Shown here piece after piece: positions 1,697 to 10,648 of a stretch of 12,275 bases of DNA. Positions within the stretch are counted from its first letter, which is position 1. Every line of letters begins with the position of its first letter. The DNA is taken from assembly GCA_026395455.1 (NCBI GenBank), contig JAPLYR010000081.1, forward strand, positions 1-12,275, given 5' to 3'. The translations under genes were made by a program, and so were the position numbers. Source of the stretch: Candidatus Roizmanbacteria bacterium. GTDB taxonomy: Bacteria > Patescibacteriota > Microgenomatia > UBA1406 > GWC2-37-13. The notes under the pieces are model-generated. The model searched no databases, was not told the origin of the DNA, and saw only the letters and a program-made list of their open reading frames with translations.

Positions 1697-1736
1697 AATG
1701 AGAATTGATAAACAATCACATAAACAATTGGGTGTA

Positions 1737-1824
1737 GTATTTTGCATATTTGACAGGAGATGTCCTGTTTGAGCACTCGAATCATCCTTGTGTGAGTTCA
1801 TCGGATGGAAAATATGCAAAATAC
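1737..1824. other. 88-bp element bounded by a perfect 15-bp inverted repeat, with two inner hairpins
   Basis: Arms 1737-1751 (GTATTTTGCATATTT) and 1810-1824 are perfect reverse complements. Inside are a perfect hairpin, ACAGGA-GATG-TCCTGT (1753-1768), and a weaker one, CATCC (1783-1787) with GGATG (1803-1807). Together these would fold as a three-way junction on either strand. The element sits between the terminator of the upstream membrane-protein gene and the tgt -10 box. It may be a small RNA, a leader if tgt is also transcribed from further upstream, or a miniature mobile element. I see no target-site duplication and no match to a riboswitch I know. Confidence 0.55.
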
Positions 1825-1838
1825 GAAACATATATCTT

Positions 1839-2441: not shown

Positions 2442-2476
2442 GCTCCATATTAAAATGAGTAAATAATATACGATCC

Positions 2477-2545
2477 GTTTATTATTATTTTATTGCTTCA
2501 TCGTACCTTTGTACTTGGTACGAGGCGCATAAAATAATAATAAAC
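2477..2545. repeat. Long AT-rich hairpin with 17-bp perfect arms
   Basis: Arms 2477-2493 and 2529-2545 are perfect reverse complements made almost only of A and T. Inside, CGTACC (2502-2507) pairs with GGTACG (2517-2522) around a 9-nt loop, and GC pairs near 2495 and 2527 link the two stems. GTAC occurs three times in the loop region. It could form a cruciform in DNA or a long RNA stem on either strand. It lies 30 nt beyond element A on the minus strand and might stop or stabilise the queA transcript, but it lacks a U-tract typical of a terminator. Confidence 0.6.
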
Positions 2546-2575
2546 TCTACATTAGAAAATGACTTTTTATGTTTC

Positions 2576-2683
2576 GCAATTCGAAACAATATGCTCAACA
2601 CCTGACCTTTTTACCAGTGAGATTTTAGGGTGGGTGGGAAAAACGAAGCAAAAGACGTCACTGTGAGCATATGTGAGAATTGT
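2576..2683 (-). ncRNA. Structured element A, copy 1 of an unnamed family, in the 3' region of queA
   Basis: This 108-nt element matches 7930-8041. Shared blocks in the same order are AATTCGAA (2578), TATGC (2590), GACCTTTTT (2604-2612), GGAAAAACGA-x-GCAAAA (2637-2653), GCATATG (2667-2673) and GAGAATT (2675-2681). The ends pair: GCAATTC (2576-2582) with GAATTGT (2677-2683), then TATGCTCA (2590-2597) with TGAGCATA (2664-2671), then CAGTGA (2615-2620) with TCACTG (2658-2663). In the other copy the outer pairs change together (C-G becomes T-A, G-U becomes G-C), which argues for a selected RNA fold. The minus strand is my choice because it begins 12 nt after the queA stop codon. The block order is given as read on the plus strand. 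Confidence 0.6.
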
Positions 2684-2695
2684 AGAAAAATACAA

Positions 2696-3743: not shown

Positions 3744-4040
3744 TTACTTTTTCTTTAACTCCAATTTTTGAAACCATTTTTTTCGAAACATAAGTGCAAT
3801 CACAGCATATACTCCAATGTCTGTCCAACTATCGTCAACTCCCTCATTTTTTGGCTTCTTCCCTGTGCTTAAAATATTTTTTAGTCTGTTAAGTTTGTCA
3901 CTTTCCCGAAAAACGATACCCAACTCCCCTGTATCTAAAATATTTCCTTTCCCGTAGTCTTTATGTTTTTTTATAAATACCTCTAACATCTCTTGCGTTA
4001 TGAGGCTAAATGCTTCTTCTAGTGAGGTAGGCTTCTTCAT
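3744..4040 (-). CDS. Small DUF1599/Nmad1-like protein (nucleotide-modification-associated domain)
   Basis: The 98-aa protein has the pattern of the DUF1599 family, also called nucleotide modification associated domain 1: KHKDYG (25-30), RESDKLNRLKNIL (45-57), then NEGVDDSWTDIGVYAVIAL (65-83). The acidic positions E66, D69, D70 and D74 on predicted helices recall all-alpha metal-dependent nucleotide hydrolases of the MazG type, which is an inference. A basic tail (RKKWFQKLELKKK) ends the protein. Its ATG overlaps the folA stop by ATGA, implying translational coupling, and queA follows after 4 nt. Position within a thymidylate block fits work on deoxynucleotides, but the reaction is unknown. 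The family call is from memory of the conserved motif, not a search. Confidence 0.6.
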   Translation of the reverse strand: MKKPTSLEEAFSLITQEMLEVFIKKHKDYGKGNILDTGELGIVFRESDKLNRLKNILSTGKKPKNEGVDDSWTDIGVYAVIALMFRKKWFQKLELKKK

Positions 4041-4536
4041 TTTTCTAAGTCTAAAAACGTGTAGGCGAGTCCCTCGGCAGTTTTTTTATCTTCCTTCCCT
4101 ACTACTTTTTTAAAGTTACTGTAATCTGGAAAATAGGTGTCCCCTTCAAACGTTTCATGAACAAGTGTGAGATGAAGTTTATCTGCTTTTTCTATTGTTT
4201 GGTTAAATATGGATGCTCCTCCTGACACAAACACCTCTCCCCCATCCCCCACTGCTTCCCTTTCTTTTTCAACTCCAACATTTAATGCATTCTCAACTGA
4301 GCTTACGACATAACAATTGGGCACATCTGTTACGTAGTTTTTGTCTCTACTTACAATAATGTGCTTTTTTTGTAGTATGCGAGAATTGAATCAAATGTTG
4401 TACGCCCCATGATGACCGTATGGTGAAGTGTTAAATATTTGAAATGAAGTAAATCATCTTTAATGTGCCAAGGAATTCTGTTTTTATTCCCTATTACTCT
4501 ATTCTCAGACATGACCGCAATAAGTGAGATTATCAT
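4037..4536 (-). pseudogene. folA: Dihydrofolate reductase, reading frame broken at an A7 run
   Basis: DHFR reduces dihydrofolate, the by-product of ThyA, to tetrahydrofolate. The first frame (4536 down to 4351, 61 aa) gives MIISLIAVMSENRVIGNKNR, then PW and the substrate-binding acid D28 (IPWHIKDDL), then VIMGRTTFDSI. It hits a stop at 4351-4353. The rest of the protein continues in the -1 frame, with KHIIVSRDKNY directly after the A-run and VFVSGGASIFNQ, GDTYFPDYS and AYTFLDLEK at the C-terminus. One extra base at the seven-A run (T7 on the plus strand, 4365-4371) restores about 166 residues, normal for DHFR. Causes could be a sequencing error, a real mutation, or slippage on the A-run. The start overlaps the thyA stop (ATGA) and the end overlaps the next start, so the operon structure is intact. 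That, and the good conservation of both halves, favours a functional gene. Confidence 0.85.
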
Positions 4537-5480
4537 TTCTTCTTTTTTTCAAAATAGCCACCAGATACTGAAAGAGCAGCCTTGATTGGTGGGTGGAATT
4601 CATAATTGTTTAGATTGACATATTTTGTTTTGAAGCCATTTACTGTCTTAAAAGGATGAGTGAATAAAATGGTAGGAAATGGAAGTGGCTTTCGTTTTAA
4701 CTGTTCTTTTACTTGTTCCAAATGTATTTCATAGATATGAACATCTCCAAATGTGTGGACAAATTCACCAGGTTCATATCCTGTTATTTTTGCAAGAATT
4801 AAAGTTAATAATGCATAAGAAGCAATGTTAAATGGCACACCAAGAAATATGTCTGCGCTTCGCTGATAGAGCTGTAGTGACAATTTTCCATCAATAATAT
4901 TTACCTGATACATGTTGTGACATATAGGAAATCGAGAAGCATCCTTTTTAACTGCCATTGTGTATAAATATTCCGGATTCCATGAATTCACGATAAGATT
5001 GTGAGCATTCGGGTCATCTTTTATCTCTTGTATCACCCATTTCAATTGATCTACAGTTCTTCCTGTTCTAGTAGGCCATCTCCTCCATAGTTCTCCATAT
5101 ATTTTTGGAAGATTCCCCCATTTTTTAGCAAATTTTGTGTCTGATTCAATGCGCGCAATAAACTCTTCTTTACTTAGGTTTCCACCTTTTTTTTCAACGT
5201 ATATTTTATATGGATAATCATCCCATATATGCACTTTATTCTTCACTAAGTATTCAATATTTGATTGTCCAGAAAGAAACCAATAGAGTTCATGAAGTAC
5301 ACCCTTCCAATACACTTTTTTTGTCGTGAGAAGCGGAAATCCTTCAGAAAGATCAAATCGAAGTTGTCTTCCAAATACACTGTAAGATGCATCCCCTGTT
5401 CCTCTATCTACTTTTCGTACACCATTATCTAAAATGTCTTTTAAAAGGTTGAGATATTGATATTCTGGATGTGTTTTCAT
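4533..5480 (-). CDS. thyA: Thymidylate synthase (ThyA type)
   Basis: ThyA methylates dUMP to dTMP using methylene-tetrahydrofolate. The 315-aa product shows DRGTGD (25-30) with the phosphate-binding Arg, FDLSEGFPLLTTKK (42-55), HELYWFLSG (63-71), RRWPTRTGR (133-141), the nucleophile C187 in FPICHNMYQ, YQRSADIFLGVPFNIASYA (205-223) with D210 and N218, and GDVHIYEIHL (245-254) with H248 and Y250. Length matches ThyAs that carry the roughly 50-residue insert (about residues 90-130 here). After the usual end (HPPIKAALSV) there are 11 more residues (SGGYFEKKKK region). Family members normally end near this point, with the terminal carboxylate closing the active site. The purine-rich codons of that tail precede the folA start, which overlaps by ATGA. 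No Shine-Dalgarno sequence precedes thyA. Confidence 0.97.
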   Translation of the reverse strand: MKTHPEYQYLNLLKDILDNGVRKVDRGTGDASYSVFGRQLRFDLSEGFPLLTTKKVYWKGVLHELYWFLSGQSNIEYLVKNKVHIWDDYPYKIYVEKKGGNLSKEEFIARIESDTKFAKKWGNLPKIYGELWRRWPTRTGRTVDQLKWVIQEIKDDPNAHNLIVNSWNPEYLYTMAVKKDASRFPICHNMYQVNIIDGKLSLQLYQRSADIFLGVPFNIASYALLTLILAKITGYEPGEFVHTFGDVHIYEIHLEQVKEQLKRKPLPFPTILFTHPFKTVNGFKTKYVNLNNYEFHPPIKAALSVSGGYFEKKKK

Positions 5481-5507: not shown

Positions 5508-5583
5508 TCAAAATAAGTGTAATATAAAAAACAAAAACTTCAAACCCATTTTATATTTTTATCTATATATATAAACTAGGTGG

Positions 5584-5672
5584 CTTGATTGAAGGGGCCC
5601 GACACGCGCGGAAAAAGTGCAAGCCAGCAGGCTATTGCAGCTTTTGAGCACTGGCGGGAAGTCTCAATCAAG
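5584..5672. other. 89-bp GC-rich structured element between the dUTPase-like gene and thyA
   Basis: Perfect 9-bp arms CTTGATTGA (5584-5592) and TCAATCAAG (5664-5672) enclose a stretch much richer in G and C than its surroundings. Inside, GCCAG (5623-5627) can pair with CTGGC (5651-5655) around a small hairpin AGGCT-ATTGC-AGCTT (5629-5643), and CAC (5603-5605) can pair with GTG (5617-5619). It starts about 28 nt after the stop of the upstream gene and ends about 104 nt before the thyA ATG, so it would lie in the leader of a thyA message. I compared it mentally with SAM, THF, preQ1, cobalamin, fluoride and SRP RNA signatures and found no match. A structured RNA or a small mobile insert are both possible. 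Confidence 0.5.
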
Positions 5673-5699
5673 ACGGAATCTGGTTTATGTTTTAAATTG

Positions 5700-7904: not shown

Positions 7905-7929
7905 AGCAAAATTGGTAACAAAATTATAT

Positions 7930-8041
7930 GTAATTCGAAGCAGTATGCCAGGCATGTAGACCTTTTTGCGGTTGCAAGTTGAGAGTGAGGTTTGGAAAAA
8001 CGATGCAAAACGGCGCTACTGCCGGCATATGCGAGAATTAC
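7930..8041 (-). ncRNA. Structured element B, copy 2 of the unnamed family, in the 3' region of tatD
   Basis: This 112-nt element carries the same ordered blocks as 2576-2683: AATTCGAA (7932), TATGCC (7944), GACCTTTTT (7959-7967), GGAAAAACGATGCAAAA (7994-8010), GCATATG (8025-8031) and GAGAATT (8033-8039). Outer arms GTAATTC (7930-7936) and GAATTAC (8035-8041) pair perfectly. TATGCC (7944-7949) pairs with GGCATA (8024-8029), and after a bulged A, GGCA (7951-7954) pairs with TGCC (8020-8023). Between copies these inner arms differ in sequence but keep pairing. It starts 10 nt after the tatD stop on the minus strand, almost the same distance as copy A from queA. No U-tract follows, so it is not a plain intrinsic terminator. 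Confidence 0.6.
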
Positions 8042-8051
8042 TCTGACATTT

Positions 8052-8888
8052 TTACTTATTTAGGTTAAATAGTCTTTTTGCATTCTTTGTAGTCACCTCC
8101 GCCACCTCTTCAACTCGTATCCCCTTTAAATCAGCTATATACTGCGCGATTATGGGAATATTTGCAGGAGTATTTGGGTAGAGCCGTTGTGTTTTCAGTG
8201 GTTCTGGAAGAAGAAATGGAGAGTCTGTTTCCAAAACAAGCATAGTAAGGGGAACTTTCTTTATAAATGAAGATTTTTCACCTCCATAGGTCACATCACC
8301 ATCTACTCCGATATATATATCGTGTGCTTGTGCATAACTGAGGAGATCTTCATCTGGTTCACAACAGTGGAATACTGTCCGAAAACGCATTTCTTCGCAC
8401 CACTCTTGATTGATAATATCGATAATCTCTGTTTTTGTCTCGCGGTTATGGAGAATAAGGGCTTTGTCATATTTTCTTGCAAGTCGTATCTGAGCAATAC
8501 AATATTCTTTTTGTGCGTTTAAAAATTCATCACTTATCTGATAGTTTTCATATTTCGTATCCTCATACATATGTTTATCTAACCCAATCTCCCCAATTGC
8601 AACCACTTTGGGGTGAGTAATCAGTTTTTCAAGCTCATTCATGTCATCTTGCATCGTATTTGACGCTTCTTTATTAAATGTGTGATGAGGATGAATCCCA
8701 ATAGCAACGTATATTGAGTCATCTTGTTTAGCAATCTCTATAGCTTTCAGTGAAGAAAATAGATCAGTTCCAGGTACTACAAATATTCCAACTCCCTTTT
8801 TATGTGACTCCTTAATTACTTGTTCTCGTGTTTTGTTAAACCGTTTAAAGTTAAGATGACAATGAGTATCAATAAATGTTGTATTCAT
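8052..8888 (-). CDS. tatD: TatD-family metal-dependent hydrolase (3'-5' DNase type)
   Basis: The 278-aa product is a TatD/YcfH-type amidohydrolase-fold nuclease. Metal ligands are visible in order: DTHCHLNF (H9 and H11), the Glu of AIGEIGLD, the His of LILHNRE, the His of VFHCCEP (usually HCFSG), and the Asp of LETDSPFL. The C-terminal part (PNTPANIPIIAQYIADLKG, then TTKNAKRLFNL) matches the family end. Members remove damaged DNA ends or act in RNA and D-amino-acyl-tRNA quality control; which applies here cannot be read from sequence. The ATG at 8888 lies 12 nt after a -10 box shared with the divergent TSP1 gene, so the message has at most a very short leader. Element B begins 10 nt after the stop. 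Confidence 0.93.
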   Translation of the reverse strand: MNTTFIDTHCHLNFKRFNKTREQVIKESHKKGVGIFVVPGTDLFSSLKAIEIAKQDDSIYVAIGIHPHHTFNKEASNTMQDDMNELEKLITHPKVVAIGEIGLDKHMYEDTKYENYQISDEFLNAQKEYCIAQIRLARKYDKALILHNRETKTEIIDIINQEWCEEMRFRTVFHCCEPDEDLLSYAQAHDIYIGVDGDVTYGGEKSSFIKKVPLTMLVLETDSPFLLPEPLKTQRLYPNTPANIPIIAQYIADLKGIRVEEVAEVTTKNAKRLFNLNK

Positions 8889-8900
8889 ATAGTGAGTTTG

Positions 8901-8908
8901 ATTATAAT
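8901..8908. promoter_or_regulatory. Self-complementary -10 box shared by tatD and the TSP1 gene
   Basis: ATTATAAT reads as its own reverse complement and so supplies TATAAT on both strands: plus 8903-8908, minus 8906-8901. The start codons are only 29 nt apart (8888 minus, 8918 plus), leaving leaders of a few bases on each side. A poor -35 (TTGTAT, 8879-8884, 18-bp spacing) is available for the plus direction. Confidence 0.6.
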
Positions 8909-8917
8909 AGAAACATC

Positions 8918-10648
8918 ATGAAAAAAAGTTGGATATATATATTTCTTTTTTGCTTTCTCTTCTTAACTTTTAATAAAATTACACTTGCAGACTTCAACAT
9001 CATTAATAGCAATAGTGCTGATCCAGTGGACTGTGTATGGAGTGACTGGGGAACGTGCTCAAAATCTTGTGGAACAGGAATTCAGTGGAGATATATAGCT
9101 CTTGAAGCTTCAAATGGAGGAGTGGAATGTACCGGACAATATTATCAGCAATGTAACACTCAACCATGTCCTATCAACTGTGTATGGAGTAGTTGGAGTG
9201 CCTGTTCTGTTACTTGTGGTGGTGGAACTCAGACGAGAACCCATACTACTGAGGCGCAATGGGGAGGAGCAGAATGTGCTGGTCCATCTTCTCAATCATG
9301 CAATACTCAACATTGTCCTGTGGACTGTGAATGGAGTGATTGGAGCGCCTGTTCGGTTAGTTGTGGAGGAGGGACTCAAACAAGATATCACACGGTAGAA
9401 AAAGCATACGGAGGTAAAGATTGTACTGGCAAGTCAAGTCAGTCATGTAATACCCAATATTGTCCAATTGATTGTGTTTGGAGTAATTGGACACCATGCT
9501 CTGTCACTTGTGGCGGAGGAATTCAAACAAGATATCATCTTTCTGAAGCTAGATATTATGGAAGAGACTGTGTAGGTCCCTCAACGAATACTTGTAATGA
9601 AAATGTGTGTTCCGATATTGGTTCTGGTGGATTTGTAAAACCATCAACATCATCAACATCCTATTCTCCTCCCATTATTATTCTAAGCTCAAATAATGCA
9701 GCTCCAACCGCCTACCCAACACGTGTTCCAACAGTAAAGCAGGCAGATGCAAATTTTAATGTTGTTCAGTTGTTTACAAAGCCAACCGCTACTCCTACAC
9801 CAGTCCTCCCTACTCCTACTACGTATAAGCCTTACCAGCCACCAACGGTTGCTCCAACTAGTATTCATATTCAGCCAACTCCCATTATCCCTACTCCAAC
9901 GGTAAAACCAGAATCATTTATTCCTAATTCATTAGGATCTCAAACTAATAATGCCAACCAACAAACTTCATATACACTTAATACTCAAATTTTGAAGGAT
10001 ATTAAAGTTGCTATTAATAAGGTCACAAGGACTCCTACGGAAAAACCATTACTTCCTCAGGAACAAAAATTATTAGCGAATAAAGCGGCATCAAGTTCTT
10101 ATGGAGGTATTGTCGTATCACTTGAACAAAAGACTGGCTCGCAATTTGTCACACAACAAGATGAGCTCACAGTAAAACGAGGAAATCAATTTTTTAGTAT
10201 TTCAAATCAAGCTACCCCCATCCAAAGTATAAGTAGTCAAAAATCGACTAACACAAAGAGTGAGTTGTCTACTGAACAACTCGAAATCAATGCAAATAAC
10301 GTTATAGCACGATCAAGTATGGGTCTTTCAATTGATCCCTTAAGTGGAGTTCTCACTATAGACACTCCTACGGGTCCAAAAAAAGTGAGTATTATGCCTG
10401 ATGAGGCTCTGGGGATTGTACTAGAACTAAAGGCGCTTAATACGAAGGGCGTTGTTGAACCAACAATCCTTCTCGTTAGTGAAAAAGGTTCTCTAATCTA
10501 TCGAATATCTGGAGAAAAAGTTGAGAAATTCCTTGGCTTTTTCCCTATCTCAATTCGTAAACAAATTCTGGTCTCAGCCGATACAGGAAGTGTAGTTAAA
10601 GTTGAACTATCCCTTCTTTCACAGATACTCAGCTTCTTCACATTCTAA
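8918..10648 (+). CDS. Secreted protein with four thrombospondin type-1 repeats
   Basis: The 576-aa reading begins at the ATG at 8918, which gives a classical signal peptide: MKKSW, a hydrophobic core IYIFLFCFLFLTF, and a likely cut after TLA at residue 24. An upstream in-frame ATG (8876) would put 14 polar residues first and lies inside the opposite gene. Residues 38-231 are four TSP1 domains with an exact 49-residue period, each with six Cys and the pattern W-x2-W-x2-C-S-x2-C-G-x-G. Residues about 240-335 are a Pro/Thr/Ser-rich linker with PTPT and PTV runs. Residues about 355-576 form a C-terminal region I cannot assign (SIDPLSGVLTIDTPTGPKKV, then LIYRISGEKVEKFLGFFPI), ending in a short hydrophobic stretch without LPXTG. 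TSP1 domains usually bind proteins or glycans, so an adhesin or surface-interaction role is likely, by inference. Confidence 0.9.
   Translation: MKKSWIYIFLFCFLFLTFNKITLADFNIINSNSADPVDCVWSDWGTCSKSCGTGIQWRYIALEASNGGVECTGQYYQQCNTQPCPINCVWSSWSACSVTCGGGTQTRTHTTEAQWGGAECAGPSSQSCNTQHCPVDCEWSDWSACSVSCGGGTQTRYHTVEKAYGGKDCTGKSSQSCNTQYCPIDCVWSNWTPCSVTCGGGIQTRYHLSEARYYGRDCVGPSTNTCNENVCSDIGSGGFVKPSTSSTSYSPPIIILSSNNAAPTAYPTRVPTVKQADANFNVVQLFTKPTATPTPVLPTPTTYKPYQPPTVAPTSIHIQPTPIIPTPTVKPESFIPNSLGSQTNNANQQTSYTLNTQILKDIKVAINKVTRTPTEKPLLPQEQKLLANKAASSSYGGIVVSLEQKTGSQFVTQQDELTVKRGNQFFSISNQATPIQSISSQKSTNTKSELSTEQLEINANNVIARSSMGLSIDPLSGVLTIDTPTGPKKVSIMPDEALGIVLELKALNTKGVVEPTILLVSEKGSLIYRISGEKVEKFLGFFPISIRKQILVSADTGSVVKVELSLLSQILSFFTF
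9029..9610 (+). repeat. Four 147-bp coding repeats (TSP1 domains)
   Basis: Four units, with first-Cys residues 39, 88, 137 and 186, repeat every 147 bp. Units 2 to 4 are most alike (SACSVTCGGGTQTR and similar); unit 1 is the most divergent (TCSKSCGTGIQWR). This pattern suggests growth by internal duplication with unit 1 as an older copy. Confidence 0.9.

Follow-up and report, generated by a model that had tools for sequence, protein, structure and literature searches.

The window analysed here is the whole stretch of 12,275 nucleotides from a Candidatus Roizmanbacteria bacterium (positions 1 to 12,275 of contig JAPLYR010000081.1, assembly GCA_026395455.1), and it carries two copies of an unnamed palindromic element, which we will call E. 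The first copy lies between queA (minus strand, 3' end at 2696) and an open reading frame (ORF) of 158 amino acids (minus strand, start at 2369). The second lies between a glycosyltransferase gene and tatD, whose stop codon is at 8052; these two genes converge. An earlier note on this DNA had pointed out two structured segments with shared blocks, 12 nt from the stop codon of queA and 10 nt from that of tatD. Both spacings are correct, the blocks are as described, and a covariance model (R1) recovers both segments:

2575..2684, + strand: E copy 1, subtype A (118.1 bits with model R1, E-value 8.6e-26 in its own genome)
7929..8042, + strand: E copy 2, subtype B (112.2 bits, E-value 2.5e-24)
2637..2653, + strand: conserved block GGAAAAACGA-x-GCAAAA of copy 1, which forms the 3' part of the apical loop and the 3' side of the apical helix
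7994..8010, + strand: conserved block GGAAAAACGA-x-GCAAAA of copy 2, from a pattern search

We confirm that this resemblance is more than chance and that both stretches represent a single element. The further copies that the note had suggested looking for exist: model R1 found 19 in the genome of the window (976,606 bases) and 18 in a sister metagenome-assembled genome (MAG), JAPLYQ01 (isolate LacPavin_0920_WC57_MAG_37_8). Aligned copies are 109–114 nt long and belong to subtype A, typified by copy 1, or subtype B, typified by copy 2. A pattern built from the conserved block and allowing up to two mismatches matched 20 places in the window's own genome, of which 19 are the copies of E; the 20th holds no copy and was dropped. 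Three copies touch a contig end or lie within 30 nt of one, as expected because repeats tend to break MAG assemblies.

The fold of E is genuine, and its structure is conserved. The arms of copy 1 are:

2576..2582, + strand: 5' outer arm of helix P1; pairs with 2677–2683 (alignment columns 2–8 with 113–119), with changes on both sides in 5 of the 7 pairs
2677..2683, + strand: 3' outer arm of P1; partner of 2576–2582
2586..2595, + strand: 5' inner arm of P2, which is two short helices with one bulged base between them; pairs with 2666–2674
2666..2674, + strand: 3' inner arm of P2, with changes on both sides in 8 of the 9 pairs of helix 2

P1 and P2 of copy 1 are separated by a 3x2 G/A-rich internal loop. 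In the alignment of 38 matches, which has 37 distinct rows, the cells at paired positions can pair in 97.4% of cases, versus 88.9% in shuffles. Both-side changes occur in 19 of 25 pairs, versus 6.4 in shuffles, and in 85 cells, versus 20.9 in shuffles and 3–8 if the partners are slid. On a tree of 37 full copies, from which a 68-nt contig-end copy (sister-genome contig C45) was excluded, as it was from the comparison of sister pairs below, 31 pairs underwent 34 double changes that preserve pairing; six slid controls gave 0–2. Another 19 single changes also preserve pairing. The note's claim that the outer arms change together, and that the inner arms still pair with different bases, stands, with covariation far above both kinds of control.

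The automatic fold missed one helix, GTGAC/GTCAC in subtype A and GTTG/CAAC in subtype B, which covaries and has an altered version in one diverged copy. Complementarity above that of shuffles extends about 2 bases past the modelled arms. The conserved unpaired blocks that had been noticed in the window are present in the copies of E: in most of them, a lone base still bulges out between the halves of P2, and the GAA/GA internal loop, the asymmetric loops, and the apical GGAAAAACGA block are retained as well. Folding z-scores for the two window copies, on both strands, range from -2.9 to -5.9 as RNA and from -2.3 to -4.3 as DNA. G-U cells outnumber A-C cells by 18 to 11 if a doubtful pair, 23–100, is set aside, and the counts are 20 to 22 if it is included.

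E has a very narrow distribution. Just two of 72 genomes from the family contain it, namely the window's own genome and the sister MAG; there are no copies in the other genome of the same genus (99% complete) or in the remaining 69 members of the family that were searched. Filters were stricter in any run that covered more than 40 genomes. Such a run over a phylum sample of 379 genomes found E in none of the other 378 and recovered 10 of the 19 copies in the window's own genome, so weak relatives may have been missed. Rfam 15 yielded no match to the window at the gathering threshold and no match to five E loci at expectation values up to 5, which is the answer to the note's question of whether E is a known RNA family. 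A viral origin was rejected, as one pattern match in viral contigs was not matched by the model, and so was a plasmid or phage origin, as copy 1 had no blastn match among plasmids and phages. Pattern matches in Altererythrobacter, Sulfurovum, and Haloflavibacter also lack a model match, and we treated them as chance. Among openly licensed PMC papers, none turned up that deals with elements of this kind in Patescibacteria.

Over the window, the two genomes are syntenic at 80–90% identity, and the two E-bearing gaps have turned over. The queA gap of the sister genome contains an inverted E and an adjoining copy of a second element, X (described below), and its tatD gap contains no E and a different palindromic repeat instead. 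Judging shared loci by the similarity of the flanks on at least one side, and with the sister locus compared for part of the copies, we found 10 loci that are occupied in both genomes. These give 11 pairs of E, since one locus has two copies in the window's own genome. Four of the 11 pairs are reciprocal best copies and are 97–100% identical; the others differ in subtype, orientation, or lineage, and one pair at a shared locus is subtype B versus subtype A. Three other pairs of the same orientation and type have diverged by 8–14%. In the other, more distant genome of the same genus, the gap that matches one E-bearing gap is 129 nt shorter.

Two observations on the sister genome stand apart from this comparison. 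The repeat in its tatD gap (contig C18, 3239–3385) is A+T-rich and palindromic, contains many TTTAGGGTTT-like words, and is also found on other contigs of both genomes. We also noticed stretches at contig ends, of 705 nt and 300 nt, that are 100% identical between the two MAGs despite the 80–90% identity of syntenic regions; these could reflect recent exchange, mis-assembly, or cross-binning.

The gene context of E is mixed. Our analyses of flanks, gene context, target-site duplications, and location within genes used 36 copies, with a copy on contig C44 left out. Thirty of the 36 are flanked on each side by an ORF of 80 codons or more, and the gaps are convergent (11), divergent (8), tandem-sense (7), or tandem-antisense (4); these counts use crude ORF calls and treat copies in the same gap, and loci common to both genomes, separately. 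So, the earlier description of E as lying just after a minus-strand stop codon is true of both window copies, yet it is not a general rule. There is a milder bias: in 11 of 36 copies, the distance from the right edge of E to the 3' end of an adjacent ORF is 20 nt or less. By the same crude ORF calls, 10 of 36 copies partly overlap an ORF of this size. Outside the hairpin, there is no flank that all copies have in common, and subsets share modules of X and of another repeat, Z. Between the two 12-nt flanks of a copy, 20 of 36 copies have no common word of 4 nt or more, and the other 16 have words of 4–7 nt that vary from copy to copy.

The neighbouring genes are unrelated, as the note had remarked for queA and tatD, and this also holds across the other copies: Pfam, run on 30 of the 40 neighbouring ORFs, identified mainly housekeeping genes and returned no family for 9 of these 30. 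We rejected a riboswitch or 5'-leader, as the orientations are mixed and the genes are unrelated. No terminator-like site was scored at either window copy, in agreement with the earlier view that E is not a plain terminator. Just beyond the 3' end of the 158-amino-acid ORF, there is a terminator-like hairpin at 1845–1868, which was scored on both strands. Several copies of E adjoin genes of DNA-repair type, which encode RecR, a Y-family polymerase, an S24 peptidase, an HhH-GPD glycosylase, a UvrB-like protein, and TatD (8052–8888 in the window); three of them belong to one cluster.

E is one of at least three families of folded repeats in these genomes. The window also contains a copy of each of its companions:

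5573..5686, + strand: family X, a structured palindromic element unlike E; dispersed repeat
1726..1833, + strand: family Y, a third structured palindromic repeat; dispersed
2474..2550, + strand: family Z, a 77-nt hairpin repeat, 24 nt to the left of E copy 1; dispersed

At least 8 of 37 copies of E have X at 5–25 nt from their left end, in the opposite orientation every time, and an additional copy of E at a contig start adjoins the end of an X. Both X and Y covary, with 44 double-changed cells versus 14 in shuffles for X (18 copies examined) and 22 versus 6.8 for Y (8 copies examined). Y has at least 8 copies. G-U cells outnumber A-C cells by 31 to 9 in X and by 11 to 3 in Y, which is suggestive for strand choice. 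X is mostly 85–116 nt long and is far more widespread than E: its model matches 39 of the 72 family genomes, with up to 27 copies per genome, and a refined model matches 14 of the 379 genomes of the phylum sample (by model matches alone). These matches are not generic hairpins, because the 29 X alignments from genomes of the family have long conserved loops in common. A search of viral contigs with the X pattern found no match.

X is also found inside protein-coding genes. Taking the best match from each of 27 genomes (27 of 29 X matches, and 27 of the 39 genomes that have X), we found that 10 of the 27 loci have X wholly within a long ORF to which Pfam assigns a family, five in the sense and five in the antisense orientation. 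(We examined 13 of the 14 loci where X overlaps an ORF; the other three are at the edge of the ORF.) According to Pfam, the genes that hold X encode Fmt, asparagine synthase, a glycosyltransferase, QueA, Dus, MiaA, acetyl-CoA synthetase, TsaD, transketolase, and a P-type ATPase. MiaA, QueA, and Fmt were aligned to relatives, and the other seven were judged by Pfam alone. In MiaA, the insert corresponds to a clean gap of 33 columns against one uninserted relative. In QueA, it corresponds to a likewise clean gap of 42 columns against the protein encoded by the window's own queA, which is uninserted. Fmt is not a clean case of insertion, because the loop that holds X varies in length: opposite the 29 residues encoded by X, 14 of 119 relatives have five residues or fewer and 64 of 119 have at least 15. 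A screen of 120 homologues of Fmt for X-like inserts flagged 10, none of them X-like, and it missed one protein known to hold the X peptide, so this screen carries no weight. X cannot be explained as an intron, as five of the 10 copies within genes are antisense to the gene and the antisense strand cannot splice. In being found within genes in both orientations, X behaves as mobile DNA, and this would not be expected of a cis-acting structured RNA.

As a candidate for moving E, we considered Y1 transposases (Y1_Tnp). None was found in the window's own genome, although one could have been missed, given that this genome is 84.75% complete. Among the three genomes of the genus, the only Y1 transposase found is in the sister genome, and we rejected it as the mobiliser of E because the gene is bracketed by an unrelated 37-nt palindrome of its own, not by E or X. 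That gene (RAYT-like, 216 amino acids, contig C90) and its palindrome (near 4044–4080 and 4835–4868) have a layout like that of a REPtron. Across the family, 34 of the 39 genomes with X encode a Y1 transposase, versus 18 of the 33 others (Fisher P 0.003, which ignores relatedness and genome size); five genomes with X lack Y1, and one of these is 99% complete.

E can be compared to several known systems of repeats. Bacterial interspersed mosaic elements (BIMEs) form mosaics. Integron attC sites act as folded single strands with unpaired bases, and E is also folded with unpaired bases, but conservation of apex and arms is the opposite: in E, the apex is conserved and the outer arms are variable. 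Repetitive extragenic palindromes (REPs) are described, in the passages cited, as dispersed and mostly intergenic imperfect palindromes, often less than 20 bp from the 3' ends of genes (PMC3733652), and their processing is thought to act on the folded single strand (PMC3733652, PMC6006769). They are defined by a length of 20–40 bp (PMC3733652) and by a tetranucleotide tag (GT[AG]G or CGTC) at the hairpin's foot (PMC3733652, PMC6006769). E resembles REPs in being a dispersed imperfect palindrome in intergenic space. However, it is 109–114 nt long instead of 20–40, the tag is absent from columns 1–8 of the alignment (38 rows), and no copy of E was found beside a gene for a Y1 transposase.

Rickettsia palindromic elements (RPEs), according to sections of PMC2229807, are stem-loops of 105–146 bp that are found in frame inside conserved protein genes and also in gaps. 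E is similar in its length and its long stem-loop, and its companion X is similar in being in frame inside genes as well as in gaps. E differs from RPEs in that it was inside a gene in 0 of 36 cases, and the host is unrelated; the likeness is by description and not by the sequences of RPEs. The same sections describe Correia/NEMIS, RUP, and ERIC as non-autonomous elements of about 100–200 bp with stable stem-loops (PMC2229807). Like miniature inverted-repeat transposable elements (MITEs), E has terminal inverted repeats (in helix 1, 96.4% of cells are paired), and the size and stem-loop are similar, but it lacks a consistent target-site duplication and a fixed terminal TA. Because E does not have the length, foot tag, or transposase link of REPs, the duplication of MITEs, or the in-gene copies of RPEs, we set it beside these classes and not within them.

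We propose that E is probably a non-autonomous palindromic DNA repeat, similar to REPs and BIMEs or to RPEs, that is mobile or was recently mobile and whose folded strand is recognised by a mobilising protein. This proposal rests on the number of copies, the restriction to two of the searched genomes, the conservation of structure, the turnover at orthologous gaps, the arrangement of E and X, and the presence of X in frame within genes. A single strand of E would form a long hairpin with imperfect pairing, in which the internal loops and bulges are fixed and the apical loop is conserved. A putative mobilising protein would then recognise the folded strand and copy or move E into intergenic gaps, sometimes in a mosaic unit that also contains X, an unrelated module. 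The structure would be under selection via recognition of the folded strand, and E would presumably use the same route of movement as X.

Several results weigh against this proposal. No mobilising enzyme is linked to E in the three genomes of the genus, and there is no consistent target-site duplication at E. No copy (0 of 36) lies wholly in an open frame of more than 114 codons, so none was found inside a gene. On the tree of E, 25 of 98 changes at pairs disrupt the pair. Finally, divergence within the four shared pairs of E is low, at 7 of 443 aligned sites versus 253 of 2,429 in their flanks (Fisher P 4e-12; flank identities disregard gaps, and one locus lacks a left flank). Choosing these loci as reciprocal best matches favoured low divergence. 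The low divergence looks like constraint by the host, and it fits domestication, gene conversion, or recent exchange; some copies of E may have acquired a role in the host.

The note had suggested that E is a functional RNA, either a processed small RNA or a motif in 3' untranslated regions for stability or protein binding. An RNA could explain the strong covariation, the conserved unpaired blocks, the right edges near gene ends (within 20 nt in 11 of 36), the low divergence of the four shared copies, and the predominance of G-U over A-C (18 to 11 without pair 23–100, or 20 to 22 with it). However, the excess of G-U is small, E is present in just two of 72 family genomes, eight of the 30 copies with two neighbours are between divergent genes, and orientations are mixed. 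The tie to the 3' ends of genes was dropped because E is found in convergent, tandem, and divergent gaps, next to unrelated genes and with no universal flank, and because the sister gap can hold an inverted E, another subtype, or no E at all. We consider a functional RNA of either kind unlikely. 

It is doubtful, too, and to a greater degree, that E is a host DNA site that was domesticated after it spread. In E. coli, a role in binding nucleoid proteins or topoisomerase has been attributed to BIMEs, and such a site would account for the absence of E from gene interiors (0 of 36), for the four copies that are conserved in place beyond their flanks, and for the mosaic arrangement with X and Z; this is hard to square with close relatives that lack E and with turnover at other loci, and no protein partner is known. 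The covariation might instead be mutational, if template switching in quasi-palindromes homogenises the arms and produces a fold without function. That process exists and, according to PMC8794818, can create and maintain hairpins; the tree, with 34 double versus 19 single changes that preserve pairing, and the few wobble states are also in its favour. But template switching should erase mismatches too, and the GAA/GA loop, the P2 bulge, and the asymmetric loops are mostly retained. It also leaves the dispersal to about 19 places unexplained, and we consider this explanation very improbable.

Two other features of the window are unconnected to the repeats. At 4037–4536, what we take from its translation to be a dihydrofolate reductase frame is apparently split into two ORFs on the minus strand (4351–4536 and 4037–4324), which could be a real break or an assembly error. 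And a protein of 590 amino acids (ORF 8876–10648) has tandem thrombospondin type 1 repeats, at 9116–9537.

Returning to mobile repeats, we tentatively suggest a broader possibility: E, X, and Y, and likely more families, could be unrelated folded selfish repeats of about 85–116 nt in Roizmanbacteria, and perhaps in other Patescibacteria, that spread as single strands and form mosaics. X would enter the genes of conserved enzymes in frame and in either orientation, and some copies of E would since have been recruited by the host. The segments from X lengthen MiaA by 33 residues and QueA by 42; for Gmk of Rickettsia, such an insert is reported to be tolerated (PMC2229807). Protein-coding palindromes were described from Rickettsia and later from Wolbachia (sections of PMC2229807), and other papers report palindromes that code for protein from the mitochondria of nematomorphs (PMC6649704) and a coding repeat, also palindromic, from diverse microbes (PMC2996958). 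With E in two and X in 39 of 72 family genomes, there is a comparative set for the question of what moves such elements. If our suggestion is true, then a system of protein-coding palindromes like that of Rickettsia exists in an unrelated group of host-dependent bacteria, and coding palindromes in Patescibacteria would show that they originated in another host-dependent lineage with small genomes.
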